Below are positions 9,338 through 64,000 of a DNA stretch of 64,000 nucleotides, one piece after another. The notes under the pieces were generated by a model that was not told the DNA's origin, searched no databases, and was given only the letters and a program-made list of their open reading frames with translations. This stretch comes from Gautieria morchelliformis (taxonomy: Eukaryota; Basidiomycota; Agaricomycetes; Gomphales; Gomphaceae), in NCBI GenBank assembly GCA_015179125.1, contig WHVA01000562.1:1-64000 (forward strand), in the 5' to 3' direction. Made by a program: the position numbers and the translations under genes. How positions within the stretch are numbered: the first letter of the stretch is position 1; the number at the start of each line of letters is the position of its first letter.

Positions 9338-10760
9338 TTGTTCAGAATGCCGATCACCCGATTCACCCATGCCAAAGGCAGCCGCATAACGCCGACAATC
9401 GAAGCTTGGCGTGCACGAGGTGCTTTGAGCGTTCCGGAAAACCCCCCATTCCGTCACTGGTATTCCAACCCCCCATCAGTTCAACCCGCACCCTGGCACC
9501 GAGTTATTGGTGCTGGCCGAGGGCATGTCAGGGAAGTTCCCAAAGAACTGAGCGCTGAACCCCCCGAGCCGAGTGATCCTGGCGATGGTGGTGGAGGTGG
9601 CGATGATTCCGATTCCGGTTCCAAGCATAATTCCAATCCCGACATGGCAGGCCCAAGACCTAATCCCAACCCGAATGCAGCGGCAAACGGCGAGGATCAG
9701 GTTGGGCGACTGCTCACGGCTTTGGAAAAGCTCGCCGACAATGAGCTTGATGGTGGTGGAGATCGAAGTGACTCGAAAGCTAAACTCCAGGAACCCGACC
9801 GGTTTGATGGTTCGGACCCGAAACCTCCGAGGATTTCTTCTCCAGTGCACGCTGAATTTCTGTGCCAAACCATTCCGAGATGGTTCTACAAAAATGAACT
9901 ATGTTTTGTCCTTCCTCAAGGGAACAGCTCTGGATTATTTTGAGCCTTACCTTGCAGATGACCCTGCCAATGAACCCACATGGGCTTTGGATTATACGGC
10001 ATTCATGGAAGAGCTCTACCTGAATTTCAGTCCCTACGATCAAGTTGTGGATGCCGGAATTGAGCTCGAGAATTTGGTCATGAAGGATAACCACGAGGCA
10101 ACTTGGTTTTTCATTGAATTCTAAAGACTCGCATCCGTCCTTCAGTATAATGATTCAGCTTTGCATCGCCGAGCCTACCTGGCTTTGCCGAAGCGAATCA
10201 AGGACGGAAATGGTGCATTTGGACAAACCCTGAACCCTTGACAACCTCCAAGACCTTGTTCAGAAAATCGACCAGAGGTATTGGGAACGTTGCGGTGAAC
10301 ACTCTCGTGAGACTCATTCCGCTCCCAAACCCAAGGCCAAGAAGGACAAGTCAGCCAACCAAAACCGAGGCTCCCAGAACAACGACCGAGGTCAAGGTCA
10401 AGGTTCTGGCAACTCCAATGCTAATGCTGGTAATAACCAAGGCAAAGGCAAGGACAAGCCGAAAGGGAATAATCAGTCCGAGGGTCAGAAAAAACCCCAA
10501 ACTGGACAGACTCGGCAAGGACAGCAAACTCACACCTGCAGAACGCCAGCGTCGCATGGATAACAACCTCTGTTTAGTCTGTGTGCAGAGTGGCCACTGT
10601 GCGAAGGACTGTCCAAGAGCCACGTCGGCCTGGGAAGCCACGGCTTCTGATGGGAAGACGTCCGATGAGAAAGCCGATAGCTCAGCTTCGGGCACGAAAA
10701 AATAGTCAGCGGCCCTACGGCCTCCGCGCATACCGAGGGTCGCGTTGACTCGGCTTGCGC
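9338..10760 (+). pseudogene. A2 gag
   Basis: Three shifted plus frames together give a Ty3-type Gag. It has a Pro/Gly-rich N-terminus with a Gly-Gly-Asp run (9338-9830), a capsid-like region (MNYVLSFLKGTALDYFEPY, MEELYLNFSPYD, LASVLQYNDSALHRRAYLALP), a basic Asn/Lys-rich linker and a CCHC knuckle CLVCVQSGHCAKDC near 10571-10612. Gag packages the element RNA. Frameshifts near 9830 and 10220 and an in-frame stop after FFIEF make it non-functional. Confidence 0.8.
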
Positions 10761-10839
10761 ATTGGGGGAGGTAAGAATCAATGCTTCTGCTCTCTGTTCC
10801 CTGAATTCTCTTGTAGTTAGTTTATCCTCGTCTCTGCTC

Positions 10840-11723
10840 CCCAACCAAAAGTTTAAAGCCCTAGTAGATTCCGGCTCTACTCATTGTTTCATTGAATCCG
10901 TTTTTGTAAGTAGAAATAGCCTGAAAACCTGATCTGTAGATCTGATCCCGCTCCGTTTGTTTGATGGTAGTACAAATTCGGTAATTACTGAAGCTGTAGA
11001 ACTACCTATCCGTTTCCCTGATGGTCACACCCATTCCGTAGACTTTTATGTCACCCCCCTTGATTCGTCTGTTTCGGTAGTTCTCGGACACAACTGGCTC
11101 ACCCGCTACAATCCATTGATTGACTGGGTACTGGGCAGTATTAGGTTCCGAACTACCCTCCCAGGCAGTCCTGTGAACAACCTGCCGGCTTCGGCTGCTC
11201 GCACCTCTATGGCCGAGACCGAGCCAAACCCGAGCTTGGAAGCTCCCTGGGTGGCTCTCCTGAATGCAGCAGCATTTTACCGTGCCTGCAAACTAGAGGG
11301 TTCCCAATGTTTCCAGCTAAACCTGGCACAACACGAATCTGAGGCTTCGGCCCATTCGGCCTCTGTGCAACCCGATCCGTTGGATCTAAAGGGTGTTCCA
11401 AAGGAGTACCACGACTTTGCAGATGTCTTTAGCAAATCCAAGGGTGACGCCTTGGCTCCCCACCGACCCTACGATCTAAAGATTGCTTTGGAGGATGGTG
11501 CTACCCCTCCTCAACCCCCGTTATACTCGCTGTCTACCTTGGAGCTTGCCACGCTCCGAGCTTTCATTGATGAGCACCTGAACTTGGGTTACATTTGGCC
11601 CAATCGGTCCTCCCATGGAGCCCGCATCCTTTTTGTCAAAAAGAAGAGTGGCGAACTTTGGCTCTGCGTGGATTTCCGAGCACTCAATAAGATTACAAAG
11701 AAGGACCGCTATCCACTCCTGTT
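10840..11723 (+). pseudogene. A2 protease and start of RT
   Basis: The aspartic protease signature VDSGSTHCFIES starts near 10864, and a partner block VVLGHNWLTRYNPLIDW follows near 11075. The RT entry follows (PPLYSLSTLELATLRAFIDE, FVKKKSGELWLCVDFRALN, KKDRYPL). The protease matures Gag-Pol. A stop lies between protease blocks near 10930. RT is broken at 11723 by the SINE and continues at 12404. Confidence 0.85.
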
Positions 11724-12392
11724 TTTTTTTTTTTTTTTTTTTTTAATAATCCAAGCTTTGTCTTTTGGGGCAATGCCCTATGTAGGACGGTAAGTACAGC
11801 TTCTATCTTATGTCTTCTCCTTCTCGCCTTTTGTTCTCTATCTCTGCTTGTGCTCTTTGGGCAAGGCCCTGAGCTTGTCTGTGCCTATATATGGGTGGGG
11901 TGTGGATAATCATACCTCCGAAATGCCAATACTCCCCTCAGCACCCCTTTAAAGCTAAACAGTCCAACCCATAAACCGCATAGTAATCGACCTTCCACGG
12001 CTTATTTGGACATGTACTACCCATGTGTACTTTCAGTTTGTACCCCTCAGCTGCAACACCACCTTGACACCTTTCCCACACCCCAACAAGTGGCAGCAGC
12101 TGCAGTCTACTGCCGATGTTTTGGCCCAGCCTCCGGCTGTCGGTGTGACAAATCATGATAGTATGGGTACCCGGTACTCCAAAGCATCGGTTCTGAATTG
12201 GAAAGGATAGTTGAGTATACCACCATTCATATTTGGGGCAGGCAATCAGATGTTATTGGCAATCAGTGTGGCAGAAATTTTTTTCCAGAGTGTCTAGGGT
12301 GTTATCTCCGGAGGGGCCAGGATTGAATGCTCAGCCTTAGCTTATACGCTCAACCCCTGGGGTGGGCTTACCACTAAGCTACCACGGCCCCT
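11724..12392 (-). mobile_element. tRNA-derived SINE with a LINE-derived 3' tail
   Basis: Flanked by CCACTCCTGTT (11713-11723) and CCACGCCTGTT (12393-12403), an 11-bp TSD with one change. The minus strand begins AGGGGCC at 12392 and has a perfect pol III A box (TAGCTTAGTGG) and a weak B box (TTCAATCC, one base short). It closes the 7-bp match with GGCCCCT near 12312. The 3' end (11722-11890 on plus) ends in about 23 A residues. That tail matches the last 165 nt or so of the LINE at 45126-52091, including two GGGC...GCCC hairpins at 11768-11778 and 11859-11869. The body between head and tail is unrecognised. Confidence 0.8.
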
Positions 12393-12403
12393 CCACGCCT
12401 GTT

Positions 12404-13430
12404 GATTACCGACTTGTTGGATGCACCCGGAAAGCTCGGATTTATACCAAAATCAACCTTCGGCATGCATTCCACCTCGTCCGAGTGGAAAACAGCATTC
12501 CGGACCCAGTACGGCTCGTTCGAATGGCTAGTCATGCCTTTCAGCTTAACCAATGGTCCTGCAGTTTTTCAACATTTTATGAATGACGTCTTGGGAGATA
12601 TGCTTAATGTATGCGTCGTCGTGTACCTTGACGACATACTCATCTACTCCGATGACCCGGTCAAACACAGGGAACACGTCCGTGAAGTATTGCGGCGTCT
12701 TCGGAAACACGGTCTCTATGCTAAACCCGATAAATGCGAATGGCACCGAGATTCCGTGGAATTCTTAGGGTATATGCTGTTGACCAACGGTTTTACTATG
12801 TCTGAAGACAAAGTCCAGACAATCTGCGATTGGCCCAAACCTCAGAAGGTAAAAGACATACAGTCCTTCCTCGGTTTCGCCAATTTTTACCGCCGCTTCA
12901 TTTATAACCATTCCGACATCACGGTCCCCCTAACCCAGCTTACCCATAAAGGCACCCCGTGGGCGTTTACTGAAGAATGCTGAAAGTCTTTCAATTACCT
13001 CAAGGAGGCTTTCACTTTGGCTCCAATCCTGTCGCATTGGATTCCCGACTGGCCTATGGTCGTGGAAACCGACGCCTCGGACTAGGCCCTCGGCACAATC
13101 CTGTCATTGTTCGATGAAGAAGGTGTCCTGCACCCGGTTGCTCTCTATTCCCGAACATTTTCCGGTGCTGAATTAAATTACGATGTCCATGATAAAGAGC
13201 TATTGGCAATTTTTGAAGCATTTCAACATTGGAGACACAATTTGGAGGGCTCCGGCTCCCCTATCGACGTTGTCACTGATCACAAAAACTTGGAGTATTT
13301 TGCCACCACGAAGTTGCTAACCCGACGACAAGCCTGCTGGTCCGAATTCCTCTCTCAGTTTAACCTCATTATTCAGTTCGGTCCCGGAAAGCTCGGTACA
13401 AAACCCGACACTCTGACTAGATGATGGGAT
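12404..13430 (+). pseudogene. A2 RT palm/thumb and RNase H
   Basis: One 193-residue frame (12402-12983) carries [33 protein letters not shown] (YLDD at 12624-12635), [14 protein letters not shown] and [12 protein letters not shown]. RNase H follows: VVETDASD, a stop where Tyr is expected, then [18 protein letters not shown] and [10 protein letters not shown]. It makes and trims cDNA. A second stop at about 13422 is TGA where related copies have CGA. Confidence 0.85.
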
Positions 13431-13439
13431 GTCCACCTT

Positions 13440-15024
13440 AAAGAGGGAGGTAATGACTATGGCTCAGTCAACCCACAAAACTTCTGACCGATTTTCACTA
13501 ATCAACAACTGTCGGAATCTCTCCGGGCAACTTGTCTGCTTGAACCCATCCTCCGGGCAAGCATTGTGATGGACTCCGAGAAGCTTCATGCCAACATACT
13601 AGCCAACCTGGCATCCTATCCCGTAGCCGCTAAGCATCTCGGCGATAGTTCCGACCCGAGATGGACACAAACCGAGGATGGTTTCCTCCACCTCGATGGC
13701 TGCATATATGTTCCCGATGCCGACGATCTCTGGCTCTGAGTACTCCAGTACAAACATGACCATGTACTCTCGGGACATTTCGGTCAAAACAAGACCTTAG
13801 AACTCATCAGACGGGAATACACATGGCCCGCACTTCAGTCTTTTGTCATCAACTTTTGCAAGTCCTGCACTACTTGCATGCGTTCAAAGTCACAGCGTCA
13901 TCGGCCTTACGGCTCCCTGCAGCAGCTTCCGATACCCGAGCAACCTTGGAATTCCATCTCCATGGATTTCATTGAGCAGTTGCCAGTGTCTTTGGGATTC
14001 ACTGCAATCCTTGTAGTAGTTTGCCGCTTAACCAAACAGAGCATATTCATCCCTACCTACAACACAGTCACATCCGCAGACCTAGCCCGCCTGTTCATCT
14101 TGCATGTTTTCTCGAAGCACAGTGTCCCTAGCCACGTGACATCCGACCGAGGTTCAGAATTCGTCTCGCACTTTTTCCGTTCCCTGGGCAAGGCTCTCGA
14201 CATGAAACTGCACTTCACCTCGGGAATATCATCCCAAAGGCGATGGTCAAACCAAACGTGTCAACCAAACTCTAGAACAGTACCTTCATGTGTATTGCAA
14301 TTATCAACAGGACAATTGGTCTGAATTGCTACCACTCGCCGATTTTGCGTACAACAATGCTCCTAGTGCAACTACTGGTATATCACCTTTCTTTGCCAAC
14401 AAGGGATACAACCTGAACCTCACGGTTCACCCCAAACGGGACCTCACATTCTCCCGAGCCCGAGACTTCGCAGTTGACCTTGACCAGCTTCATGCTGCCC
14501 TGAAAGAGCAAATTAAATCCGCTCAATCTCGGTATCAGGTCTCGACCGACGCGCGTCGTGCTCCCGCTCCCGAGTTCGCGATAGGATCCTCAGCATTTGT
14601 AAAAGCGCAATTCTTCCAGACAACCCAGCCCTCAAAGAAGCTGGCTGAGAAGTACCTCGGTCCCTTTGAGATTATTGGCCAGGCCGGATCCCGAGCTTAC
14701 ATTCTATGCCTCCCGGATAACCTTCAGGCAGTCCACCCGGTCTTTCATGTCTCCATGCTCAAACCCACAATCCTGACTACCATTCCGAACCGGGTTCAGT
14801 CTCCACCGCCTCTGGTCGAGATCAACGGCGAGACAGAGTATGAGATTTCTGAGATTCTTGATTCCAAGATCGACTGACACCATAGACCCTGTAACCTCCT
14901 GTACCTTGTCCGTTGGGCTGGTTATGAAGGCACCAATGAAGAGACGTCATGGGTCCTTGCAGCTGAGATCATGACCGACTTTCACTCGGCCTACCCTGCC
15001 AATCCTGGACCATGGGTTCCTTGA
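13440..15024 (+). pseudogene. A2 integrase with C-terminal chromodomain
   Basis: Zinc-binding region (HDHVLSGHFGQNKT...CKSCTTCMRSK), core with ISMDFIEQLP and HVTSDRGSEFV, the QPTNLE region after a frameshift near 14225, then PLADFAYNNAPSATTG, the KYLGPFEI barrel and VHPVFHVSMLKP. The last ~60 codons (EYEISEILDSK, LLYLVRWAGYEGTNEETSWV, DFHSAYP) are a chromodomain, which targets integration to modified histones in chromoviruses. Stop at 15022-15024. Stops at about 13738 and 14875 and two indels inactivate it. Confidence 0.9.
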
Positions 15025-15281: not shown

Positions 15282-16592
15282 CTAGCTATCTTCCATAGTC
15301 GCATCTTCCTCATCCGCATCCGCACCCTTTTCCCTGTCATCCCACTTGTCCTCCTCGCCCCCGTCTTCCAAATCTGAACCCGAACCCGCTTCTGCTTTTC
15401 CCTCTGTCTCCTCTTTCTCTTTTTCTTTCCCCTTATCCCTTTCCTCCACTCCCTTTTCCCTCTTCGCACCCCCCGAACCCAAACCCGAACCCCCAGCCAA
15501 ATCGAACCCACCCCAATCCGAACTCGTCCCCGTCCATAGGGATGCGTTCTCGGCCACTGTGGCCCACAGATGTAGTTAGTCGCTTGTTCAACTTGGCATT
15601 GTGCCGCTCGATCCGCTGCACAAAATCCAACACACCTCGGAGCAAGTGGTTGCTCTGCTCCAGCTGCTCGTTTTGATGAGTTAGCAAGTCCTTGACCATC
15701 CGAGAAACCTCAGCTCCCAAAAACCCGTCGGGTTTTAACCCCTTTATTCCTGCTCCCCACGGCCCCGCACGGATGTCTACCGTCGGTATGGCTCCCGACG
15801 GCTTGACCGGAGACATCTTGGCCTTCTTCGGCCCCGGTCCCTCGGTCGCGTCCGCATCCTTTCGTTTGCGTTTCCCGTCCAGGAAACTGCACCGGACCTT
15901 TCAGTCCACGCATTGCTGGCATGCAGTTTTTCTCCCATGTAGACACCAGGTTTGGTGATGCCTGCACGCATCACAAGGTTCACGCTGAAAAATAAACATA
16001 AGTTAAAGCCGAACCGACCCGACCCCAGGACTCACCTCTTCCTCAGACTCCTCTTTGTCTGACTCCTTGGTCATTTTCCGCTTTCGTGATCCCGAGGCTT
16101 GAGGCTTTGCCTTAGCCGCATTTCTTTCAGCCGCATGCTTCATGGCCAAAATCCACGCTTGTGCGGTTGCCGAATCCACTACGATCAGCTCGGGCGATGG
16201 GATGTGGTAGTTCTGGTCCACATCGGCTTGTCAAATCGTTTCAGCTTTCAGCATATCCAAAAACCGCTGTCGCTCACATTCAAAAACTGGCCCCATTGCT
16301 TTCCGAGCCTCGTTGGCTTTCACCTTCAAGGCCCGCTTCTGCACCTCCCACACTTCTTCGGCTTTCCGAGCTTCTTCAGCTATTTGCGCGGCTTCAGCCT
16401 GCGCCTTCCGTTCCGCCTCGGCTTTTTCAGCGTCCTCCCCCCGCTTCTTCTCTGCAGCTTCTTTGCGCTCCTGCACAAGTACCGTTTTTCTTGCAATTCC
16501 TTCATCCGCTCCGCAGCTTCGCGCTCAGCTTGTGCGAGCTCAGTGTCGACCTCATCGACCTCGCTGATGGGAATTTCATGTGTCTCTGACAT
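15282..16592 (-). pseudogene. A2 antisense gene: Zn2Cys6 coiled-coil protein, one intron
   Basis: It lies between pol and the 3' LTR on the opposite strand. From ATG at 16592 (MSETHEIPISEVDEVD) it gives a Glu/Ala/Lys coiled coil (AEKAEAERKAQAEAAQIAEE), an IPSPELIVVDSATAQAW block and KRKMTKESDKEESEEE, then a 51-nt intron (15985-16035: GTGAGT...TTTTTCAG, phase 0). After the intron CDAC-x6-C-x7-C-QQ-C-x6-C forms a Zn2Cys6 cluster. A basic patch, a second helix (MVKDLLTHQNEQLEQSNHLL) and an acidic tail ending DEEDATMEDS follow. It has two TGA codons where CGA fits and a frameshift near 16480. Homologous to 60947-62152. Its role is unknown; DNA binding is inferred. Confidence 0.75.
15985..16035 (-). 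other. 51-nt intron in the A2 antisense gene
   Basis: On the minus strand, exon ...GAGGAAGAG is followed by GTGAGT, a TTTAAC branch-like site, and TTTATTTTTCAG before CGTGAACCTTGTGATGC. Splicing joins Glu-Glu-Glu to Arg-Glu-Pro-Cys in phase 0 and completes the Zn2Cys6 cluster. Without splicing the frame runs into a stop. On the sense strand the intron cannot be removed, so it would survive retrotransposition. The E homologue lacks it. Confidence 0.7.
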
Positions 16593-33452: not shown

Positions 33453-33460
33453 GGTGGGAG

Positions 33461-33746: not shown

Positions 33747-34120
33747 GTTGCATGTAGTCAGCTGCGCGTTCCTCACTGCATGGCGTTCAACCTTGTCGAT
33801 CCACGTTGGCCACGGCGTGTACATGGCAGTGCCGACATCTTTCTCTACCAATTGGACGCAGTTGGTGTCGGTGGTGGTTTTCAGGTGCGCAGCGAAGGCT
33901 GAGCAATTGTCGCACCCATCGGGATGGACGATTGCTACGCCATTTTTCCATCCCACGATTTTCCAGTGCTCCACAGTTGCTGTAGTAGCGCTGAGGATTG
34001 CTGCGCCCCTTGCTTGGGGGCATTGCGGACATTGAGTGATCGACGTCCATACCGTCTTTGGCTGGCATCAGCTTCGATAGAAGGTGATGGGGTGATGGTG
34101 GTTGCTTCTTAAGAAGCAAT
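33747..34120 (-). pseudogene. D2 post-pol gene, N-terminal part
   Basis: Minus strand: LLSKLMPAKDGMDVDHSM, then (shifted frame) HWKIVGWKNGVAIVHPDG, CDNCSAFAAHLKTTTDTN and AMYTPWPTWIDKVERHAV. Matches 20703-20990, so the gene was conserved between copies D1 and D2. It starts about 200 bases downstream of pol on the sense strand. Its C-terminal part is probably represented by 37105-38806. Function not recognised. Cut at 33746 by copia L. Confidence 0.6.
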
Positions 34121-34229
34121 GCGCCTTGGAAAGATCCAAGGTGAAAATTTAAGTGACACTGTTGGCATGGTCCGGTGTCTCATGTGATCTACACGTGACC
34201 TACGCGACCTGGTGTCTTTTAGGCAGGTC

Positions 34230-35247
34230 ATGTGGCTTAGTCACACCCTGGAGCTCTAGGTAGTGGTCTAGAGCTTCAAGGTCTTTACACACTGGCATGG
34301 GCTCTCATGTCACATCGCCAAGGGTCCATTGGACCTGAAATTCCAGGTCCTTGGAGTTTATCCATCTATGGGATAAAATCTCATCGACGAGCCATTCTTC
34401 CTCGTCGTTCCTGCCAAAGTCATAGAGCAACTTCACTTCTTGACGAGGGAATAGGTCATCGTTGTTGGCCTCATATCGTCGTATGAGGCTGGTGTGGAAG
34501 ACTGGCGTGACGCGCCTGTTCTTCAGCTCGTCTGGTAGCTCGAGAGTTACCGTTGAGGCCTTGTTGTGGGCCTCGAGCACGCGATACATTGGCCTGTATC
34601 GCGGCACCAGCTTCCTGGCCCTTCCTTTGGGCAGTGTCAGGTTCTGAGTGGACAGGTATATGTGGTCGCCGACTGCATACATGTCACTATCCCGGTGTTT
34701 CTTATTTGCGTGAAACACCTGCGTTACACGGTGCTCCAGTATGGCATCGTGTGCCATCATCAGGTTCCAGCGAGCCTGTTGTGCGAACCGGGATACTCCC
34801 TTGAAAGGAGTGTCCGCTCTCATGGGCATGTCGATCCGTGGCATGTACCCATGGTTTAGCTTGAAGGGAGTGAACCCTGTGGTGGCGCTGACATTGCTGT
34901 TGATGGCCACTTTGACCATTGGGCACTTGTGTGCCCAGTCCTTCTGGTCATCTCTGACGACCGTCCATAGGATCTGTCCGATCGAGTGGTTGGCCCGTTC
35001 AGTGGCTCCATCTGTTTGTGAATGGAATGCGGTAGCCATGAGGAGTTTAGTCCCCATGAGCCGCTGAAGTTCACGCCAGAAAAGCGATGTGAACTTTGAG
35101 TCTTGATCGGAGATGATGGAGTGGGGGACTCCATGGAGCCTGACGACTTCCTTGAGGAATAGCCAGGCTACTTTTTTCACCCTGACCCTCATCGTCGTTG
35201 GGATGAGGTGGACGTGCAAAGTCAGCCTGTCTATGATTACCATGAGG
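34230..35247 (-). pseudogene. D2 integrase core and chromodomain-like tail
   Basis: A 320-residue frame (34305-35267) has VIIDRLTLHVHLIPT, SIISDQDSKFTSLFWREL and AFHSQTDGATERANHSIGQI (D, D, E). It goes on to VAINSNVSATTGFTPFKLNHG, the RYRPMYRVLEA barrel, VTPVFHTSLIRRYEAN and a chromodomain-like tail EWLVDEILSHRW, DLEFQVQWTLGDVTWEP, CKDLEALDHYLELQGV. It joins the zinc-binding part at 35708 once the 455-bp insertion is removed. Mostly open; one stop is seen after GDVT. Confidence 0.85.
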
Positions 35248-35702
35248 AGGATGTTTATAAATGTCATATATATGTATATATAGCTTAGCTCATCTATATT
35301 TCATAAAATGTATCAAAATTGAGGCAGTTGCCAGCACCTGTAAGGCATGCTTAATCCTAGCCCCAAAGTTCTTTCTCACAGTCTGCTGCTCCCCCAGAGT
35401 ATAAGTATTGTCCATACTTGCTTCTATATTCTGTGATTGTACATCTAACATGTTTCATGTATACTTTTAATATATAGTCATCCACATCCTCTCTGAAATT
35501 GCTCTGTTATATCAATACACACCATGCTTTAGCACATACAACCATATTTTTAAAATATCAGAACATTCAAAAAAATTTAGGATGTCCACAATATACAAGT
35601 TGCTCAAAATGATGGACTATGAATTTGGTAAGGGTTGATATTTTAAAAGATATCTAATATATCCTAGAAGAATGTACATTGTTGTCAATGTGAACATCCT
35701 CC
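35248..35702. mobile_element. 455-bp AT-rich insertion with 5-bp TSD and short TIRs
   Basis: TGAGG occurs at 35243-35247 and 35703-35707. The ends are AGGATGTT and AACATCCT(CC), a short inverted match. Removing it restores the D2 integrase reading SDGCDYLMVIIDRL. No coding frame. The class is uncertain. Confidence 0.7.
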
Positions 35703-35707
35703 TGAGG

Positions 35708-35950
35708 TAATCACAGCCATCTGACTTGGGCATCAACCCCATGAAATCGATTCCGATCGACTGCCACGGCCTGTCTGGGATGGGCAGGCTGTGCAGCAGG
35801 CCTTTGGGCTTCTGGGTGCCAGTTTTGTTCATCTGGCACCTCGCGCATGAGATGCAAAATGTCTCAATGTTGGGGCCCATGCCTTGCCACCAGTATGCTC
35901 TTCGAATATAATTCGAAGTCTTCATGTGGCCATAGTGACCCATGGTTCTG
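35708..35950 (-). pseudogene. D2 integrase zinc-binding region
   Basis: MHRTMGHYGHMKTSNYIRRA, YWWQGMGPNI and CISCARCQMNKTGTQKP give the HHCC zinc-binding domain, then SIGIDFMGLMPKSDGCDY (first catalytic Asp). It is cut upstream near 35950 by the J-like region. Confidence 0.8.
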
Positions 35951-37104
35951 TGCATGACTCACCCTCTAATTGTGGGCAGCGATTGGTCAACACAAGTTCT
36001 GACTCATTACCCTTTTTCACTCTGACTCACTACCCCATTTCTGTGTGACTCAGTGCATGACTCACTCCCTAATCGTGAACTGCGATTGGACAACACATGC
36101 TCTGACTCACTACCCTATTTCTCTCTGACTCACTACCCTATTTCTCTCTGACTCACTACCCCATTTCTCATGACTCAGTGCATGACTCACACCCAAATCG
36201 TGAACTGCGATTGGCCAACACATGCTCTGACTCACTACCCTTTTTCTCAATGACTCACTACCCTATTTTTTCGTGACTCATTCTAGTCTATTAATAGATG
36301 GTAGATACAATATAAAAGGAGGCCTTACTGCCCACCTTTCATTAGCCAATACATCAACTGTGTTGTGGATGTGGAGGCTTGGGAATAAATTGCTATTTCC
36401 AGAGTGCTGAGTCCGAACTGGCAGGTTGGCCAGAGTTTGTGGGTGCGTAAGTGTCCACAGGCTCGAGTTCGGGCTCGCACGCGTCGGAGTTTGAATAAGC
36501 AGAGTTGTGGATACATGTGGATTCATAACTCTGCTGCAACAGAATAGAAGTGTTTTGAGCCAAAGACTTCATTAAAAATGGCAAACAAATGGTAGGAAAT
36601 TAGAGGAAGTTTAAATAGTTCATCCCCAATGATAGCAATACCAGTATGCTATATTTTAAGGTCACTATTTCGAAAATACATCGAAAATATTCTGTTTGCC
36701 CAGCAAAGCTAGATCCCATACAGCTCCGCTCGGGCAGCCCTCTTATCTTGTGAACATTTATTGGTTCACCTATTATTGGTTCACCTATTCGCCGATGCAA
36801 TACAAACTCAGCCCAACCTATGCTACCATAGCAACAAGGCTGTGCTGTGCCATGACTACACTCCTAAAATAGAATTAGGGTCATGACTCACTGCCAAGCT
36901 GAAGTATTATTGGTCCAAAGTCTTGTGACTAGGGAAATGACTCCTGCATGACTTAGAGCCTGGCTCGGCACATGACTCATGCTCGGACTCTGGCATATCA
37001 TTGGCTGAGAGGCCTCTTACCAATGAAAGGCTGTGTTGAGCTAATCCTCTTTAAGAATAAGGGTGTATCTTATTCTTAGACGTGACTCATGCCTGACTCA
37101 CTAC
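35951..37104 (+). repeat. J-related LTR-like region
   Basis: Shares blocks with LTR J: a TATAAAAGGAGGCC box (36310), a gcagagttgtgg...aactctgc stretch (36497-36545) and a caacaaggctgt block (36835). The relative orientation of blocks differs from copy 639-2264, so it is rearranged or composite. A tandem attggttcacctatt pair lies at 36759-36790. Four more TGACTCA sites lie at 36880-37110. No TSD found. Confidence 0.5.
35955..36280. promoter_or_regulatory. Array of 13 TGACTCA sites with about 23-bp spacing
   Basis: TGACTCA starts at 35955, 36000, 36023, 36046, 36058, 36103, 36126, 36149, 36171, 36183, 36228, 36251 and 36274. Three higher-order units each carry an inverted CCAAT (gcgattgg). A TATA box follows at 36310. 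TGACTCA is the known site of Gcn4/AP-1 type bZIP factors, so this looks like an LTR enhancer. The binding protein is inferred. Confidence 0.7.
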
Positions 37105-38806
37105 CCCATGTGCGACCTGAGGGACGAGATTGGTGCCCTGAAGGATGATATCAGGGCCCTCGACAGCGCGCTCGAGACCGAGCGCAGCAAGACACGAGAC
37201 CTGGGAAAACTGGTCCAGGACCTACAGCGCAAGCTTGCGAGAATGAAGCGAGCAGAACCCACCCCATGACCAGTGGCGGGCCCATCATCTCGCGCGACGG
37301 CCCCATTGCCGTCGCACGCCAAAACAGGGCTAGCAGATCGAATTGCCACGCCTAACCCCAACCCGGGCCAATCCATGCCAGGTCTCAAGGCGCTGATCAC
37401 CAGCCCACCCAGCCCATCTTTCATGGGCCCCAGCGAACCCCTGGTGTCGAAAGTCGACATCCCCGAGGGCTTCTACTCAGACGACCCGGATCTCAAGCAC
37501 TACGATCCGGACCGCCCATGGCACGTCCCAAAGAAAAGATGCGCCTGGGGTTATGAGCAGCTCGTAACCTACGACCCCATTGGTGACCTGCGCAAGCACC
37601 TCACCGATGAGTACCTGGCACAGTCGCTGAGTCGTAGCGCGAACAACCCGGGGCTGGGGCTGGCCGCGGCTCAGAATGAGTATCTCACGGCCGAGCAAGA
37701 GAGGGCCAGATGAGCGGTCTTTAGGCCTGCGCCATCGGTGTCATTTCCCCCACTGGTGATGACAGTTCCCAACCCTCTCTTGTGGGGAAGGGGAGCTCAT
37801 GCCCCTCGGGGACCCTCCGTTAGCCATGATAGGCTGCTTGCTGTGGCCCCTCGGAAAAAAGACGCTGTTGCGAGCTGAATGGTTCGACCTCTGCGAAACC
37901 ACAGAGCAGAGGTTTCAGGACCTCCTGAAGGAGGCCAGGGAGATGCCAACAGCCTCCCACACGCGTGGGATGGTGACCACGATGAGACGGGCCCGGGAGG
38001 AGGCCCGTGCCAGTAGCCACTGAGTAAGCTACTTCCTTATCGGCGAAAGAACTGCTGATGACATTCAGGTCATGCTCCAGGGTTGGCTACGCAACCCTGA
38101 AGGCATCCCATCGGCCATCTGTGACAAGCTGGATCGCAGTCTAAACATCCACGATGTGGATGTGTGGATGTGGCTGAGGAGGCTGGCACCAAAGAACCCC
38201 AAGCCCCCTTCTCCCCTCAGGGCGTGGATATACGACCTATTCCACATCACCGGCCAATGGCAGGACCTCGTGCCAGCCAATGAGGTCCGGTACGCCATCA
38301 GCAACACCCTAAGGGCGTCAATCACAGGGATGTTCCCCATCCGAGGGCGGTCGCCCCGGGACATCCCTCTGGACGAGGTCGCCTGCTGGCTCGCCAGGTA
38401 CGGCGGCGTGAACCGAGATAGCGTGCCCCGGATCGAGCAGTTCATTCAGCGCGATCTATCCAGGACGACATTTAGTGCGCCTGCCCAAATAGAGCAGGAG
38501 AGATTGCGGTTGGCGGCCCTGCAGGACCGCCACAAGGCGGCACTCGTGGCCACAGAAGCGCCGACCGCCGCCTGCGCACAGCTAGACAAGGAGCTAGCTG
38601 TTACACGCAGCCCCTCACCGGTCCCCGACCCGGTCGCTGAAGTGACCTTTCGGCTAGACATGGGCATCGATTCCCCGCCCCATACACCCACCGACAACGC
38701 GGAGCTCCCAACGGACCCACATCCACAGCCGGCCCCATACAACGACATGCCTATGTCGGATGCGGACTCCGAGGACCTCACCAGGTCCATATATGAGGAA
38801 GTTTGA
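37105..38806 (+). pseudogene. D3 post-pol gene, C-terminal part
   Basis: Sense-strand gene ending 21 bases before the 3' LTR. Segments: a coiled coil (DLRDEIGALKDDIRALDSAL, near 37110-37250), a Pro/Ser-rich linker (37273-37430), DIPEGFYSDDPDLKHYDPDR, and LRKHLTDEYLAQSL. After a frameshift near 37790 come EWFDLCETTEQRFQDLLKEA, then a 244-residue open part with MLQGWLRNPEGIPSAICDKL, VDVWMWLRRLAPKN and ITGQWQDLVPANEVRYAISN. An acidic end SDADSEDLTRSIYEEV closes the gene. Stops at 37267, 37711 and 38021 are TGA. Family unknown; the position resembles that of env in retroviruses, but no membrane segment or signal peptide is seen. Confidence 0.55.
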
Positions 38807-38827
38807 GTTGTTCATAGAGGGGGAGGG

Positions 38828-39039
38828 TGTAAATATGATGTTTACCCGCATTGCCCTTAAGGCAATGCGTGCTACTGGACTAGCTTAGATAAGCACTGTA
38901 CAGTTCTTGTGTGGGAACCGCGCGGTGGTTCCCCAGATCTTACCTTACAACTGTCACTACGTAGCACATGGAATTACCACATCTTGGTCGAGTTCCGCTT
39001 GCCCTTGTGACACAAGGTCATAAGATTCACTATCTTACA
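38828..39039 (+). repeat. 3' LTR of D3
   Basis: 212 bp, TGTAAATATGATG...CTATCTTACA, preceded by AGAGGGGGAGGG at 38816-38827. It contains the hairpin gcattgcccttaaggcaatgc. Its outer end abuts D5 gag. Confidence 0.8.
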
Positions 39040-52091: not shown

Positions 52092-53862
52092 CTCCAGCTC
52101 CCCTATCGACATTGTCACTGATCACAAAAACTTGGAGTATTTTGCCACCACAAAGTTGCTAACCCGACGACAAGCCCGCTGGTCCGAATTCCTCTCACAA
52201 TTTAACCTCATTATTTGGTTCTGTCCCGGAAAGCTCGGTACAAAACCCAACACTCTAACTAGACGATGGGATGTCTACCTTAAAGAGGGCGGTAATACCT
52301 ACAGCTCAGTCAACCTACAGAACTTCCAACTGATTTTCACTAATCAACACCTGTTGGAATCCCTCTGGGCAACTTGCTTGCTTGCACCCATTCTCCGGGA
52401 AAGCACTGTGATGGACTCCAAGAAGCTTCATGCTGACATTTTAGCTAACCTGGCGGCATCCTATCCCATAGCCGCTCGGCATCTCGGCGATAGTTCTGAT
52501 CCAAAATGGATGCAAACTGAGGACAGCTTCCTCCACCTCGATGGCTGCATATACATTCCCAATGCTGATGACCTCTGGTTCTGAGTACTCCAGTACAAAC
52601 ATGACCATGTACTCTCGGGACATTTTGGCCAAAACAAGACCTTAGAACTCATAAGACGGGAATATACATGGCCCACACTTTGGTCTTTCGTCATTGACTT
52701 TTGCAAGTCTTGCACCACTTGCTTGCATTCAAAGTCACAGCATCATCGGCCTTACAGCTCCCTGCAGCGACTTCCGATACCCAAGCAACCTGTGACTTCC
52801 ATCTCCATGGATTTCATTGAGCAGTTGCTAGTGTCTTTGGGATTCACTGCAATCCTTGTAGTAATTTGCCGCTTAACTAAGCAGAGCATATTCATCCCAA
52901 CTTACGACACAGTTACATCCCCAGACCTTGCCCGCCTGTTTGTCTTGCATGTATTCTCGAAGCACGGTGTCCCTAGTCATGTGACATCCAACCGAGGTTC
53001 GGAATTTGTCTCGCACTTTTTCCGTTCCCTTGGTAAGGCTCCTGATATGAAACTGCATTTCACCTTGGGATATCATCCCGAAGGCGATGGTCAAACTGAA
53101 CGTGTAAACCAAACTCTGGAACAGTATCTTCATGTGTATTGCAACTATCAACAGGACAATTGGCCTGAGTTGCTACCACTCGCCGATTTTGCATACAACA
53201 ATGCTCCTAGTGCAACTACCAGCATATACCTTTCTTTGCCAACAAGGGATACAACCCGAACCTCATGGTTCACCCTGAATGTCACCTTGCATCCTCCCGA
53301 TCCCGGGACTTTGCAGTTGACCTTGACCAGCTACATGCTATCCTGAAAGAGCAAATTAAACTCGCTCAATCTCGGTATCAGGTCTCAGCTGACGTGCATC
53401 GCACTCCCGCTCCTGAGTTCGCGATAGGATCCTCCGCGTTTGTAAAAGCGCAGTTCTTCTGGACAACCCGGCCCTCAAAGAAGCTGGCTGAGAAGCACCT
53501 CGGTCCCTTTGAGATTATAGGCCAGGCTGGATCCTGAGCTTACATTCTATACCTTCCGGATAGCCTTTGGGCAATCCACCTGGTCTTCCATGTCTCCATG
53601 CTCAAACCCACAATACTGAACACCATTCTGAACTGGGTTCAGTTTCCACCACCTCCAGTCAAAATCAAGTGCAAGACAGAGTACGTGATTTCTGAGATTT
53701 TCGATTCCAAGATCAACCGATGATGTAGACCATGTAACCTCCTGTACCTCGTCCGTTGGGCTGGTTATGAAGGTACTGATGAAGAGATGTCATGGGTCCT
53801 TGGGACCGAGCTCGGCCATGTGGCCAAGATTGTGACTGACTTCCACTCAGCCTAGCCTTCCA
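52092..53862 (+). pseudogene. A3 RNase H end, integrase and chromodomain
   Basis: Continues A3 after the [44 protein letters not shown], zinc-binding HDHVLSGHFGQNKT and CKSCTTCLHSK, core ISMDFIEQLLVSLG, HVTSNRGSEFVSHFF (Asp to Asn at the second catalytic position) and YHPEGDGQTERVNQTLEQYL. The KHLGPFEIIG barrel and a chromodomain with LLYLVRWAGYEGTDEEMSWV close it. A stop lies near 52582 and frameshifts near 53230 and 53535. Confidence 0.85.
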
Positions 53863-54129
53863 AGCCTGGACCATGGGTTCTCTGAACCTGAGCTTCGGCT
53901 CTCCCATTTCCTTTCACTCATTTAATGGTCACTTTCTTAGTTAGACACAACACTCTTTTGCTATGTTTTATCTCGGCCATTTTGCTGAATAGCTACGCTT
54001 GTAGTTCTCAGCTCTTCCTTTTCTCTTTTCTCTGTCTGTTCATTTCACTTCCGTTCCCGATCCCAATTCCGAAACAAAAAACACCAAGAAAAAAGATTCA
54101 CATTAAGATAGAAAAACCAAAAAACATTA

Positions 54130-54741
54130 CTAGTTATCCTCCATTGTAGCATCCTCATCTGCCTCTTTTCCCCCATCATCCTGCTCATCTCCCAAACCCC
54201 CGTCCTTCGTCATTCCCACATCCTCATCCCTGTCCTTTGAACCCGAACCCACCTCCGCTCTTCCCTCTATCTTTTTTCCTTTTCCCTTCTCTTTTCCCTC
54301 TGACTTTTTTTCCTTTTCCCTTTCCACACTTCCCAAACCCAAGCCTGAACCCCCAGCCGAATCAAACCCACCCCAACCCGAATCCGAAACCGACCACAAA
54401 GCAGCATTCTCTGCCACTGTGGTCCACAAGTGTAACCGCTTGTTCATCCAGGAATTGTGCCGCTCGATCCGCTGCACAAAATACAACACTCCCCGAAGCA
54501 GATGGTTGCTGCGTTCCAGTTGCTGGTTTTGCTGGGACAGCAAGTCCCTCAGCATCCTGGACACCTCGGCTCCAGAATATCTGTCGGGTGTTAATTGATT
54601 CCAGACCCCAATGGCCCAGCATGGATGTCAACTATCAGTATGGCTCCCGACGGCTTGACCGAAGTGTCCTTGGCCTTCTTCAGCCCTGGCCCCTCAGTTC
54701 CCTCCTCATCCTTCCATTTCTGCTTCCCGTCCAGGAAGCCA
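54130..54741 (-). pseudogene. A3 antisense gene, C-terminal part
   Basis: Minus strand: FLDGKQKWKDEEGTEGPGLK, VKPSGAILIVDIHAG, MLRDLLSQQNQQLERSNHLL, FVQRIERHNSWMNKRL and a Gly/Glu/Lys-rich acidic tail ending EADEDATMEDN at 54130. It is the counterpart of the A2 antisense gene from just after its Zn2Cys6 cluster. The cluster and everything upstream are replaced by the copia K LTR at 54742. One frame break near 54560. Confidence 0.75.
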
Positions 54742-60142: not shown

Positions 60143-60824
60143 TGTTACGTATCGAGATTTCCACTAAGTCGGAACTGGAAAGGACAGCGGCTTCAACTTA
60201 TAGGTTGCGCCCCCAATGAACTATCGTCCTAGGTATTTCGGAAATGAGTCGGAAGTTGGAAAGTACTGAGCCAAAGGTTTGGTCGGAACTTGAGGCGGAA
60301 CTGAGGCGGAAAGCGGAAGACGGAGAGACTAAGATCTTGCTAGACTCGCTGTGCTAAGAACAGGAGATGGAGCGAAGGAAATCAAGTATCGAAGGTGATT
60401 ATCTGATTGCAGAATAACAGACATACATGAGGGGGTTTTTATACAAAGCGCAGAGCAACAAGTAATGGTGTTGTACTAAGCAAATTCCGGAGGAAGCGGA
60501 AGTCGAGTACAATGTGTGGGAACTAACTAATTGGGAACAATGGGACTACAAGGGGGGTTCAGGGTAAGGTAGAACAATGGCAAAGAACAAGGGGTCGGGA
60601 AAACATATCTGACAACGAACTACAAGGGTGACCGGATATATGGTTTTGATGGATGGCGAGGTGGGTCCGGTGGGTCCGAGTAATAGAGTCGAAAGAACAA
60701 GGGAAATGTACAAGGGGCGGAATGTCGGAAATGTCGGAGGGGCGGAACGTTGTGCGGAACTATTGGAGGGGCGGAAGGAGTGGCGGAACTGAGGGTCGGA
60801 AGTCGGAAATGAACGGTCGTAACA
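60143..60824 (-). repeat. 3' LTR of chromovirus E
   Basis: 682 bp with inverted termini TGTTACG/CGTAACA. The sense direction is minus, because a purine tract (AGAAGGGAGATAC) lies just outside at 60825-60837 on that strand. By hand count it holds about 16 CGGAA pentamers on the plus strand. It sits in the gypsy H protease. Confidence 0.8.
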
Positions 60825-60870
60825 GTATCTCCCTTCTAAGGTCGAGCCCCGCGAGACCACAAGTCGGAAT

Positions 60871-60946
60871 CACGTGACCTGTGAACAAACACGTCGGAGT
60901 TTGAAATATAGGCGGGAAACAAGACGCGTCTTCTGTTTACTCCATC
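60871..60946 (+). promoter_or_regulatory. Candidate promoter of the E antisense gene
   Basis: Upstream of the ATG at 60947 are an E-box CACGTG (60873-60878), a TATA-like aaatatagg (near 60903) and a short pyrimidine-rich tract. It lies between the LTR and the antisense gene, so either it or the LTR read backwards could drive transcription. Motif-based only. Confidence 0.35.
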
Positions 60947-62152
60947 ATGAGCTCTTCAGTCGATTTCTCTAAAATGTCCAGTGCCGAGATGAAACAGCAC
61001 TTTGCTGATATTCTTGCGCAGAAGGAACTGGCCGAGAAGCGCGAGGCCGAGGAAGCCGCGCGGAAAGAGAGGGAGCGGCTGGAGGAGGAGCGCAAGGAAC
61101 TGGAGCGTCGGGAGCAGGAACGGAAGGAGAAGGAGGAGCGTGACCGTAAGCGTCGCGAGGAGGAGTCGCGCGCCCGTGAAGAACAACGGAAATGGGATGC
61201 GGCCGAAAAGGCTGCGGAAGAAAAGGCCGTGGCGGAAAAGGCAGGGAAGTTCCGGGTGAGTCGGAAATGTCGTGGGGAGGTTCCGGAGCTCACAGAGAAC
61301 TGCCAGAGAGTTGCCGATTCCGAGGGGGAGTCGGAAGCGGAAAGCACGCCGACTCCAGAGGGCAAGGGGAAGCAAAAAGAAAGTGCTCCCATGCCGAACG
61401 TAGTTGAGGAGCGGAAACGGAGGGCGGACGAGTTCCAGCAGGCTCGGAAAGAGAAGCTGGCTCGGATACTGGAGTTGCGAGAGCTGGGGCCGGAAAATCC
61501 TGCGACCCGGAAAAGGAAGACCAGGGACGGTGAGGAGGAGAAGGCTCCTTGCGATACGTGCGAGGTCAAGGGCCTGGAGTGCGTGTGGTCGGAAAATCCG
61601 CGGGAGACGGCCTGCGAACGGTGCCGGGACAAGAAGTGCCGTTGCGTGGTGGATGGGTGTGCCGCGAGGGTGGAGCGGAAACGGCGCAGGGTTGAGACCG
61701 AGGGGCCTGAAACCCCCAAGTCAAAACCGGGACCAAGCGGGAAGAAGGCGGAGGGGTTTCCGGTGACCGGAACATCGGAGACAGCGGTGCTGAACCGCTT
61801 CAGCATGGCATCTCCGCTGCTAGACATCGCGGAGTCGCTGAGGGGGATCCGGAAAACCCAACGCGGGATCCGGAAACTGCTGACGGATATGGCGGTGGTT
61901 CAGGAACAGCAGTTGCTGTCGTTCCAGAACCAGATGACCGTCATGTCGGCGGTCCTGGAGCAGTTCAAGCGCGAGTACCGGTGGCGGAACGAGATGGTCC
62001 GGGAAAGGATGGAACCACGGGTGCAGGAGGAGAACGAGGCGGAAACGAGGGAACGGGTAGACACGGAGTTGGTGGTCGTCGAGGTAGGAGGGTCGGAAAA
62101 GGATCCGGAAGCGGAAAGGGAGGTCGAGGCGGAGACCATGAGGGAGGAGTAG
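60947..62152 (+). CDS. E antisense gene: Zn2Cys6 coiled-coil protein, 401 codons
   Basis: An uninterrupted frame on the strand opposite pol, between pol and 3' LTR. Residues ~20-105 form a charged coiled coil (REAEEAARKERERLEEERKE). An acidic linker follows, then a basic helix (ERKRRADEFQQARKEKLARI). Residues ~205-237 are CDTC-x6-C-x10-CERC-x6-C, a perfect Zn2Cys6 spacing, followed by the basic patch RVERKRRRVE. A second helical region (VVQEQQLLSFQNQMTVMSAV, ~325-350) and an acidic end close it. Its stop is 134 bases from the convergent pol stop. Homologues are at 15282-16592 and 54130-54741. A DNA-binding regulator is inferred; no known family name is assigned. Confidence 0.85.
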   Translation: MSSSVDFSKMSSAEMKQHFADILAQKELAEKREAEEAARKERERLEEERKELERREQERKEKEERDRKRREEESRAREEQRKWDAAEKAAEEKAVAEKAGKFRVSRKCRGEVPELTENCQRVADSEGESEAESTPTPEGKGKQKESAPMPNVVEERKRRADEFQQARKEKLARILELRELGPENPATRKRKTRDGEEEKAPCDTCEVKGLECVWSENPRETACERCRDKKCRCVVDGCAARVERKRRRVETEGPETPKSKPGPSGKKAEGFPVTGTSETAVLNRFSMASPLLDIAESLRGIRKTQRGIRKLLTDMAVVQEQQLLSFQNQMTVMSAVLEQFKREYRWRNEMVRERMEPRVQEENEAETRERVDTELVVVEVGGSEKDPEAEREVEAETMREE

Positions 62153-62286
62153 GGTGTCGAGGTGACTTGTAGTATTTTTCTTGAAGTGTCGGAAATTAGC
62201 ATATCGGAATAATAATCGGATTTTCTTTTGAATTATGACTTGAGAAATGTAAGCAAGCCGTGGTGTCGGAATGAGGTCGGAATTGA

Positions 62287-64000
62287 CTAGGGCGCGGAAA
62301 TGGGGCCAGGCTTGTCAGGATATGACTTGTGGAAATCAGAGACGAGGTCAGAGGCGTGGTCAAGTTCCGTGGCGGAAATCCATGAGGTCTCTTCGTCGGT
62401 GTTTTCATAGCCTGCCCACTTGACTAGGTACTGGAGTTGGCAGCGGTATCGTCTGTCGAGCTTGGAGTTGAGAATTTCCAAAATCTCATATTCCGGTTCT
62501 CCGTCGATGACGACTGGCGGAGGCGGAGGTTGTTCTCGATTCGGAATTGTATTCGGAACTGCTGGCTCAAGCATAGAGACATGGAATACCGGATGTACTG
62601 CGCGCATATTGTCAGGAAGTCTGAGGGTGAAAGAACGACTGCCGGCCTTAGCGATGATCTCGTAAGGACCGAGGTATTTCTCAGAGAGCTTCTTCGAGGG
62701 GCGAGTGGTGCGGAAGTTTTCCGCTTTGACAAAGGCTTTGTCGCCTATCTCGAATGCCGGTTGCGGAAGGCGTTTCCGATCGGCGGAAGTTTGGTATCTC
62801 TTCTGGGCAGCTGTAATGTTCTCTCGGAGGTGCTGGTGAAGGTCATCAAGTTCCACAACGAAATCTCGGGCTCTTGCAGAGGCGAGGTCGCGTTCAGGGT
62901 GGATGGCGAGATTCGGGTGGTAGCCCTTGTTGGCGTAAAAGGGTGAAATTCCGGTGGTAGCGGAAGGCGCATTGTTGTAGGCAAATTCCGCGAGTGGAAG
63001 AAGGTCGGACCAATTGCTATGTTGGTAGTTGCAATAGACGCGGAGATACTGCTCAAGGGTCTGATTAGTACGTTCCGTCTGTCCGTCTCCTTCGGGGTGA
63101 TAACCGGAGGTGAAGTGGAGTTTCATGTCGAGAGCCTTGCCGAGTGTGCGGAAAAAGGAGGACACAAATTCGGATCCACGGTCGGAAGTGACATGGGAAG
63201 GTATTCCGTGCTTGGAAAAGACGTGGAGCACAAAGAGCTGTGCGAGCTGGGCGGAAGTTATGGTGTCGTAGGTCGGAATAAAGATGGACTGCTTTGTGAG
63301 GCGGTCAACGATCACTAGAATGGTATCATAGCCGGATGACTTAGGAAGTTTCTCAATGAAATCCATGGATATTGAATTCCACGGTTGTTCCGGGATCGGA
63401 AGTTGCTTCAGGAGGCCGTAGGGTTTGTGACGTTGAGGCTTGGCTCGCATACAGGTGGTGCATGACTTGCAGTAGTCTTGGACCATCGTGCGGAGGAGAG
63501 GCCAAGTATAGGTACGTCGGATTATGTCGAGGGTTTTGTTCTGGCCTTGGTGTCCTGAGAGCGGATGATCGTGGCTTTGCTGGAGCACGCGAAGTCGTAG
63601 ATCGTTGGTGTCCGGAACGTAAATCCGGGACTTGTACCGGAGAAATCCGTCGGAATCGAGGGACCATCCAGGACTGGTGGGGTCATCAAGGTGGGTTGCG
63701 GAGGTGGGGTCGGAACGGAGTGCGGAACGGATGTCGGAATGGAGAGACTCGGTGTCCATAATAATTGAGGCGCGGAGTAGCGGAAACTGCAATGCTGTGG
63801 CACGCAGGGACGATGCCAGTTGCTCAGTGGAGAATACTGGGCGGAAATTGTGCGGATTAACGCTGGCATAGTCGCTACTTCCCTCTTTTGGGTAGACGTC
63901 CCAACGTCTAGTGAGCGCGTCGGGTTTTGCTCCGAGCTTTCCGGGGCGGAAACGGATCACCATGTTGAACTGTGAGAGGTATTCAGACCAGCGGACTTGA
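62287..64000 (-). CDS. Chromovirus E pol, C-terminal part (RNase H end, integrase, chromodomain)
   Basis: Open to the window edge; the first visible codons read QVRWSEYLSQFNMVIRFRPG (RNase H end). The zinc-binding region is SHDHPLSGHQGQNKT and CKSCTTCMRAK. The core has ISMDFIEKLP, HVTSDRGSEFVSSFF and DGQTERTNQTLEQYL with all D, D and E present. The YLGPYEIIAK barrel and VHPVFHVSMLEP follow. A chromodomain (EYEILEILNSKLD, QLQYLVKWAGYENTDEETSW, DFHKSYP) ends at 62287. No stop or shift in 570 codons, so the copy looks intact. It is a close sister of family A. Confidence 0.92.
   Translation of the reverse strand, partial: QVRWSEYLSQFNMVIRFRPGKLGAKPDALTRRWDVYPKEGSSDYASVNPHNFRPVFSTEQLASSLRATALQFPLLRASIIMDTESLHSDIRSALRSDPTSATHLDDPTSPGWSLDSDGFLRYKSRIYVPDTNDLRLRVLQQSHDHPLSGHQGQNKTLDIIRRTYTWPLLRTMVQDYCKSCTTCMRAKPQRHKPYGLLKQLPIPEQPWNSISMDFIEKLPKSSGYDTILVIVDRLTKQSIFIPTYDTITSAQLAQLFVLHVFSKHGIPSHVTSDRGSEFVSSFFRTLGKALDMKLHFTSGYHPEGDGQTERTNQTLEQYLRVYCNYQHSNWSDLLPLAEFAYNNAPSATTGISPFYANKGYHPNLAIHPERDLASARARDFVVELDDLHQHLRENITAAQKRYQTSADRKRLPQPAFEIGDKAFVKAENFRTTRPSKKLSEKYLGPYEIIAKAGSRSFTLRLPDNMRAVHPVFHVSMLEPAVPNTIPNREQPPPPPVVIDGEPEYEILEILNSKLDRRYRCQLQYLVKWAGYENTDEETSWISATELDHASDLVSDFHKSYPDKPGPISAP

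Follow-up and report, generated by a model that had tools for sequence, protein, structure and literature searches.

Whether an LTR retrotransposon can encode, on the strand opposite to its own gag and pol, a protein that recognises the element itself is the question raised by one end of the 64,000-nucleotide stretch of Gautieria morchelliformis DNA analysed here (the window, on contig C629; the antisense gene was searched for in the whole genome, 122 Mb in 1113 contigs). The initial annotation had placed a 401-codon frame antisense to pol, between pol and the 3' LTR of a chromovirus that we call E, and both the frame and its position were borne out. The gene occupies 60947..62152 of the plus strand (401 aa and a stop codon; open reading frame, genome matches and dN/dS). 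On the minus strand, at 62290..64000, lies the 3' part of pol (RNase H end, integrase and chromodomain, found by tblastn, ORF and Pfam), which is read from 63999 to 62290, matches the RT-INT of the full copy L013 at 99.3% identity over 570 aa by tblastn, and continues as an open frame to contig position ~64248. On the other side of the gene the 3' LTR, 682 bp long (TGTTACG...CGTAACA), extends over 60143..60824 of the minus strand, and is repeated at both ends of the full copies L012, L013, L014, L016, L017, L019 and L053. A probable polypurine tract, to judge by position and purine content, abuts this LTR at 60825..60841 (minus strand; CCTTAGAAGGGAGATAC in the sense strand, read in seven full copies). 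The leader at 60842..60946 (plus strand), between LTR and antisense start codon, is well conserved across the 13 copies whose sequences were compared and is a candidate antisense promoter. A G. morchelliformis database protein, P0002, joins the N-terminus of the antisense frame to a piece of the LTR read antisense and to a syntaxin-looking C-terminus (window parts 60204-60254 and 60959-61030); it may be either a gene-model artefact or the trace of a transcript that starts in the antisense gene and extends into a neighbouring one.

Full copies of E are ~8 kb long with LTRs of ~680 bp at both ends, and carry frames for gag and for PR-RT-RH-INT-chromodomain; the LTR pairs, together with the reverse transcriptase, RNase H, integrase and chromodomain recognised by Pfam in the frames of L013 and L014, identify the element as a chromovirus. 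Target duplications of 5 bp flank four of the seven full copies, and the two LTRs show 100% identity in L013 and L014, 99.9% identity in L012 and values of 90.8-96.3% in the remaining four copies, so that some E insertions are very recent. Over most of its length the copy in the window matches L013 at 97.4% identity, and the annotation had taken its pol to be intact as well, which did not hold: pol is split into two overlapping frames of 653 and 575 codons, the window ending inside it. Compared with a full copy, its gag region is interrupted by ~1.45 kb of other sequence, and the contig stops short of the expected start of the 5' LTR. The window copy is one degraded member of a family with full copies elsewhere. 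In six of the other copies (L009, L012, L013, L014, L016 and L019) pol lies in at least two frames, with breaks at different places and even where the LTRs are identical; all six have an open antisense gene. The broken pol frames would be explained by recent decay, by frameshifting or by an error of assembly. In L012-L019 and L053, the stretch that follows the 5' LTR (TATTATCTGATTCCCACC) does not have the TGG start typical of tRNA primer sites, and self-priming as in Tf1-type elements is possible.

In the window copy two other frames of the same region are also open on the other strand, over 320 and 254 codons, so the openness of one copy would prove little. Among the 105 genome matches listed (103 of 1090 candidates scored), we counted by hand at least 38 stop-free copies spanning residues 1-401, of which 23 have 96-100% identity and 15 have 71-81%; an internal stop was absent in 24 of the 32 copies that we read, which were chosen and are not a random draw. 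Over 66 pairs from 12 divergent copies, dN/dS ranged from 0.15 to 0.40 with a median of 0.22, and pooled pN/pS among eight young copies was 0.23. When computed by frame, pooled pN/pS was 0.30 in the antisense frame against 1.27, 1.40, 1.08, 0.47 and 1.71 in the other five, and the 12 divergent copies had no stop in the antisense frame and 27-133 stops in the others. The values are close to those of gag and RT-INT in the same elements, with dN/dS of 0.07-0.21 for gag, 0.07-0.16 for RT-INT and 0.15-0.24 for the antisense gene. Within the gene, the lowest pN/pS, 0.16, was that of the zinc cluster block (alignment columns 200-240). The many intact copies, the dN/dS and the comparison of frames allowed us to conclude that the gene is under purifying selection and is maintained for its protein.

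A homologue is found at the same place in a sister family, A, as had been noticed at first sight (28% identity over 177 aa, E 7e-7). In family A the order is gag, PR, RT-INT, antisense gene and LTR-like repeat, and its pol is 67% identical to that of E over the longest stretch. One such element lies in the window, with similarity to gag, protease and RT-INT at 9776..15012 (plus strand; tblastn with E proteins) and a degraded antisense gene at 15282..16592 (minus strand; homology to the E gene), which had to be read in pieces and matches best at 15541-15978; a second fragment of the family A antisense gene is at 54430..54621 (minus strand), after pol pieces at 52102-53873. The pair of findings named as speaking against the annotation, a dN/dS near 1 and the absence of homologues from related elements, were therefore both contradicted, and the many intact copies, the dN/dS of about 0.2 and the homologue in family A uphold the proposal of a retrotransposon-borne antisense gene, probably for a Zn2Cys6 DNA-binding protein. 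The expectation of homologues in other Agaricomycetes fared less well. In the protein database, the window protein gave one match (best 7990 candidates scored), its residues 170-360 gave none at E <=1, and an alignment of 28 sequences gave four (best 7992 candidates scored); relatives do exist, but all four are named Gautieria morchelliformis, one of them being 86% identical over 7% of the query. As genes of transposons are often left out of proteomes, and a limited number of candidates was scored, this is weak evidence of absence elsewhere. Three Gautieria gene models of 444-524 aa (P0003, P0004 and P0005), relatives of a clade C, have the layout of the antisense protein, with an N-terminal charged helix, an acidic stretch, a Cys cluster, a basic stretch and an acidic C-terminus with TMRED; the cluster is incomplete in all three.

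Of the class of the protein, the annotation had said that the cysteine spacing fits the fungal GAL4-type cluster. The spacing C-x2-C-x6-C-x10-C-x2-C-x6-C is indeed exact in the window copy (Cys202, 205, 212, 223, 226 and 233; 61550..61645, plus strand; sequence, profiles and structure searches), and all six cysteines are present in 30 of 32 copies; an additional cysteine at 231 in the window copy is an arginine in 20 of the 32 copies read. The general pattern C-x2-C-x6-C-x(5-12)-C-x2-C-x(6-8)-C is found in E and, with a 7-residue loop, in family A. Over 28 sequences of E, A and C, Pro201, Cys202, Cys205, Cys223, Cys226 and Lys230 are invariant, and Cys212 and Cys233 are kept in at least 90%. 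Zn_clus was the commonest Pfam match, in 20 of the 28 members at E <=1 (best 0.0021); the window copy scored 12.6 bits against the curated cut-off of 21 for PF00172, and the protein is therefore described here as resembling GAL4-type Zn2Cys6 proteins and not as a confirmed member of PF00172. At E <=10 the cluster profile had only four matches in the PDB, namely LAC9, CBF3 subunit B and LEU3 twice, and GAL4-type factors made up 24 of 28 Foldseek matches, no single PDB or Foldseek match being significant. For A3, Zn2Cys6 proteins were 4 of 9 PDB matches, and the best match was GGA1. The structural model of the cluster is of low confidence (pLDDT 62.5), and in the AlphaFold2 model of the whole protein (pTM 0.27) what can be read are the helices and two short cluster helices. 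The coiled coils said to flank the cluster appear there as predicted long helices at residues 12-105 (60980..61261, plus strand, pLDDT mostly >90) and 288-375 (61808..62071, plus strand), and the basic patch was confirmed as basic stretches on both sides of the cluster; the middle domain of fungal transcription factors was not found by Pfam in the window protein.

The likeness to GAL4-type factors lies in the cysteine spacing, the basic flank, the C-terminal coiled coil and candidate sites that contain CGG, the classic half-site of Zn2Cys6 proteins. On the other hand, the E cluster scores below the Pfam cut-off, is encoded by a retrotransposon and stands in the middle of the protein, after a coiled coil of 94 residues. 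From these features the protein would be expected to bind zinc and DNA.

A candidate target was found in the element itself. In the sense strand of L013 the pentamer TTCCG, which is CGGAA on the plus strand of the window, occurs 119 times against 19.2 expected from dinucleotides (z 22.8), and CGGAA 31 times against 9.4. The counts in the main orientation are 118 in L012, 127 in L014, 118 in L016, 93 in L017, 94 in L019 and 118 in L053, and every 500-bp bin of L013 holds 4-12 such sites. In 104 of the 119 cases CGGAA is preceded by G or T, giving KCGGAA. In the window the array (60143..64000, both strands, motif count) comprises 64 CGGAA and 15 TTCCG in 3858 bp, against 44 and 73 in the remaining 60142 bp; on the plus strand there are 13-18 CGGAA per kb over E and 0-7 in the other 1-kb bins. 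The density is highest in both LTRs (26 sites per kb, with 18 CGGAA in each LTR of L013; the window 3' LTR has 16 CGGAA and 1 TTCCG on the plus strand), followed by 18 per kb for the antisense gene and, for gag-pol, by 11 main-orientation sites and 5 of the opposite orientation per kb. Neighbouring sites in the same orientation are 6-18 bp apart in 42 cases against 19.5 expected, most commonly at 12, 7, 11, 13 and 17 bp. In 52 overlapping 8-kb windows taken elsewhere in the window, the strongest 5-mer reached z 10.4 and was CCGAG, the motif of family A. As a possible origin of the sites we considered tandem duplication; short tandem arrays, some with the motif, were all that was found, and these leave the dispersed sites in coding sequence unexplained. 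At 33000-39000 of the window, TGACTC occurs 20 times against 2.1 expected, perhaps as a local repeat.

The array goes beyond what amino acids and codon usage require. For ten sense ORFs of L012, L013, L014 and L019, which lack independence as the copies are related, synonymous codons were shuffled 1000 times with the protein and its codon usage unchanged. No shuffle reached the actual number of TTCCG in any of the ten ORFs, or that of CGGAA in seven of them, the other three showing no CGGAA enrichment. For the antisense gene, the CGGAA count was equalled or surpassed in no more than one shuffle per 1000 in six of seven copies, the exception being L031 (57 of 1000). Among all 1024 5-mers TTCCG ranked first in each of the four RT-INT frames of E, at z 7.9-8.5. 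Seven other frames served as controls (chromovirus N, LINE-like, copia, two of family A or A-like, and two more); there z was -1.2 to 1.5 for the motif and only 3.4-4.7 for the top 5-mer. That both orientations are over-represented at synonymous sites speaks for a motif of double-stranded DNA. Single CGGAA sites are only slightly better kept between copies than other CpG-containing 5-mers (0.86 v 0.81, 0.77 v 0.70, 0.78 v 0.69, 0.73 v 0.68 and 0.68 v 0.64).

In family A the motif is different. Over 12 loci, AGCCGA occurs 92 times against 10.0 expected and TCGGGA 80 times against 16.2, whereas AGCCGA is found 1-3 times in each of seven E copies, at chance expectation; family A has in addition a mild excess of CGGAA (89 against ~57 summed over the 12 loci). 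CCGAGG occurs 11 times against 1.4 in the clade C stretch of L056, the A' relative L055 had no clear array and the L054 ORF showed no motif enrichment. The A copies are older and more decayed, which makes the coding test unclean for this family: a synonymous shuffle of pooled A frames, some of them out of frame and some from related copies, gave z 10.7 for CCGAG, 6.2 for CCCGA, 4.9 for TTCCG and -0.8 for AGCCG, values to which no weight is given here. A dense, family-specific array whose motif changes between families is therefore seen, more weakly for A than for E. In a nested chromovirus without the antisense gene, N, clusters of ACGGAA are mostly confined to the LTRs. The chromovirus at L056:400-6990 has a single open pol frame of 1416 codons and LTRs with tandem ACGGAA clusters; pol and 3' LTR are separated there by a sense ORF of ~190 codons.

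The histories of the antisense gene and of the rest of the element are decoupled. In 250-bp windows, the identity of L013 and L053 is 0.95-1.00 outside a block from ~750 to 2250 and only 0.71-0.82 over the antisense gene; the pair has a dS of 0.040 for gag and 0.087 for RT-INT, against 1.06 for the gene. In five other pairs of L013, L017, L019 and L053, dS was 0.15-0.20 in gag, 0.16-0.18 in RT-INT and 0.46-1.48 in the gene. Among 325 pairs of 26 copies (L010, L025 and L026, in which the pol block is partly or wholly other sequence, were left out), identity was 0.914-0.992 at the pol end and 0.655-0.993 in the gene, with a Pearson correlation of 0.20, and 113 pairs had pol at >=0.95 yet the gene at <0.85. 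Of 15 gene clades with support of at least 0.9, seven are contradicted by an equally supported pol clade, and three clades are shared. This decoupling indicates that recent backbones have acquired old alleles of the gene through recombination: the antisense gene is an exchangeable cassette, and the zinc cluster and the motif of the array stay constant despite the exchange.

To explain these observations we lean, with some reserve, towards the reading that the antisense Zn2Cys6 protein recognises the KCGGAA array and keeps its own family expressible. The co-occurrence of protein and motif suggests such a link, and with a CGG-containing motif over the whole element the autonomous regulator envisaged in the annotation would be likelier. 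The frame would be the accessory gene of a young LTR retrotransposon, with transcription most probably setting out from the leader next to the 3' LTR into the element, opposite to gag-pol; its product would be a nuclear protein that forms dimers or oligomers and has a GAL4-type cluster between coiled coils, and would most likely recognise KCGGAA across the LTRs, gag, pol and its own gene, marking all copies of the family. By analogy with the plant VANC proteins, the likeliest outcome would be that copies are kept expressible, through LTR activation or relief of silencing, while relatives may have changed both the protein and its CGG-containing motif, and recombination would have swapped the gene between backbones. 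Against this reading we counted the ACGGAA clusters in the LTRs of chromovirus N, the excess of CGGAA in family A, the lack of a clear array in L055 and of enrichment in L054, the weak conservation of single sites between copies, a CpG transition rate barely lower within the motif than outside it, the low Pfam score and the uneven split of the sites between strands (119 to 31), which would also suit a function at the level of RNA.

That the protein is a repressor acting on the array, for copy-number control or the exclusion of newcomers, with the diverged alleles as an escape by partners or newcomers, we regard as unlikely, but it is the strongest of the alternatives. It would agree with the dense sites of the LTRs, and deep alleles on near-identical backbones resemble the diversification of interference systems; the zinc cluster, however, is the most constrained part of the gene and the motif is common to backbones with different alleles, so that the alleles are unlikely to differ in target, and sites all through gag-pol are hard to explain by repression. 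Somewhat less probable still is that the array serves RNA packaging, export or translation, or a host factor, with the protein acting in import of the pre-integration complex or in target choice. The strand bias and the LTR clusters of chromovirus N, which has no antisense gene, are what this explanation would expect; it does not account for the enrichment of the reverse-complement 5-mer in 7 of 10 sense ORFs under synonymous shuffling, which points to double-stranded DNA, nor for the pol of N, where the motif is not enriched (z -0.8 and -0.3), nor for a CGG core in two families that both have a Zn2Cys6-like gene.

As the motif contains a CpG and most of the other stretches tested are CpG-poor, the array could also be a mutational by-product, left by loss of CpG outside a protected context or by an error habit of the reverse transcriptase, and we hold this to be very improbable. 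Protection cannot produce 15 sites per kb in the main orientation, far above the expectation from base composition; E is not depleted of CpG, with observed/expected ratios of 1.07-1.21 against 0.33-0.92 in nine other stretches; and transitions are alike inside and outside the motif (7/1188 v 28/3890), with no clear difference in CpG protection. CpG transitions in E are little more frequent than transitions at other C and G sites, and this, with the high CpG content, would fit weak methylation of E, which the youth of the element explains equally well. That the antisense ORF lies open by chance, facing a purine-rich tail, and yields no product has next to no probability, because, although this low-complexity stretch has other open frames in young copies, it is refuted by the frame-wise pN/pS, the stops in every other frame of divergent copies and the dN/dS, and the kept cysteines and the homologue in family A also oppose it.

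Antisense genes between pol and the 3' LTR have been described as aORF-3R, with gene23 of maize Grande, rice RIRE2, Silene Retand and PvRetro13 as examples (PMC7264820), and brtn of Botrytis Boty as a fungal one (PMC7264820, PMC8365987). According to the available text of PMC7264820, the Grande gene23 product is nuclear, the products have no clear similarity to other proteins except for SMC and transposase_28 domains, their function is stated as unknown, and antisense promoters of HTLV are mentioned. The E gene is like them in its position between pol and the 3' LTR, its orientation opposite to gag-pol and its coding conservation across many copies; it differs in its Zn2Cys6-like product and in the array of its own motif, neither of which is described for aORF-3R in the available text of that paper. 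In open-licence papers we found no Zn2Cys6 gene antisense in an LTR retrotransposon. A close counterpart is VANC of the Arabidopsis VANDAL elements, which, in the available text of PMC5735166, is encoded by the element, is associated with a dense motif mostly in one orientation, with other motifs in related elements, and is far more diverged than the transposition protein. In E, too, there are an element-encoded protein, a dense motif mostly in one orientation and a diverged accessory gene; by contrast, VANDAL is a Mutator-like DNA transposon (PMC5735166), whereas E is a retrotransposon, with the gene in antisense and the motif throughout the coding sequence. DUF1985 and DUF287 had no Pfam match in the window copy and are not among the six families listed for the 28 members, so that the E protein is not a VANC homologue, and by this analogy convergence with plant VANC is the best reading of the E system.

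A further parallel is HBZ of HTLV-1, a nuclear DNA-binding regulator of the bZIP class encoded in antisense near the 3' LTR. The E protein would share with it the antisense position near the 3' LTR and a predicted role as DNA-binding regulator; it differs in being Zn2Cys6-like and not bZIP, and element and host are unrelated. We know of no motif array for HBZ.

We give about even chances to the wider proposal that E is a retrotransposon with a complete self-recognition system, an independent counterpart of the plant VANC anti-silencing system, in which protein and motif change together and the gene is traded as a cassette. On this proposal the GAL4-like protein would have been captured or have evolved in fungi, and its binding sites would extend across all 8 kb of the element, including synonymous positions of gag, pol and the antisense gene. 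The antisense ORF of E has a testable DNA-binding class and a predicted target, KCGGAA, with ~150 predicted sites per element, and family A, with another motif, offers a natural control. The exchange of the cassette represents modular evolution inside a retrotransposon. If the main reading is true, retrotransposons too can carry sequence-specific self-recognition, their coding sequence would have been shaped by selection for protein-binding sites, and the fungus would harbour a small DNA-binding protein aimed at one repeat family.
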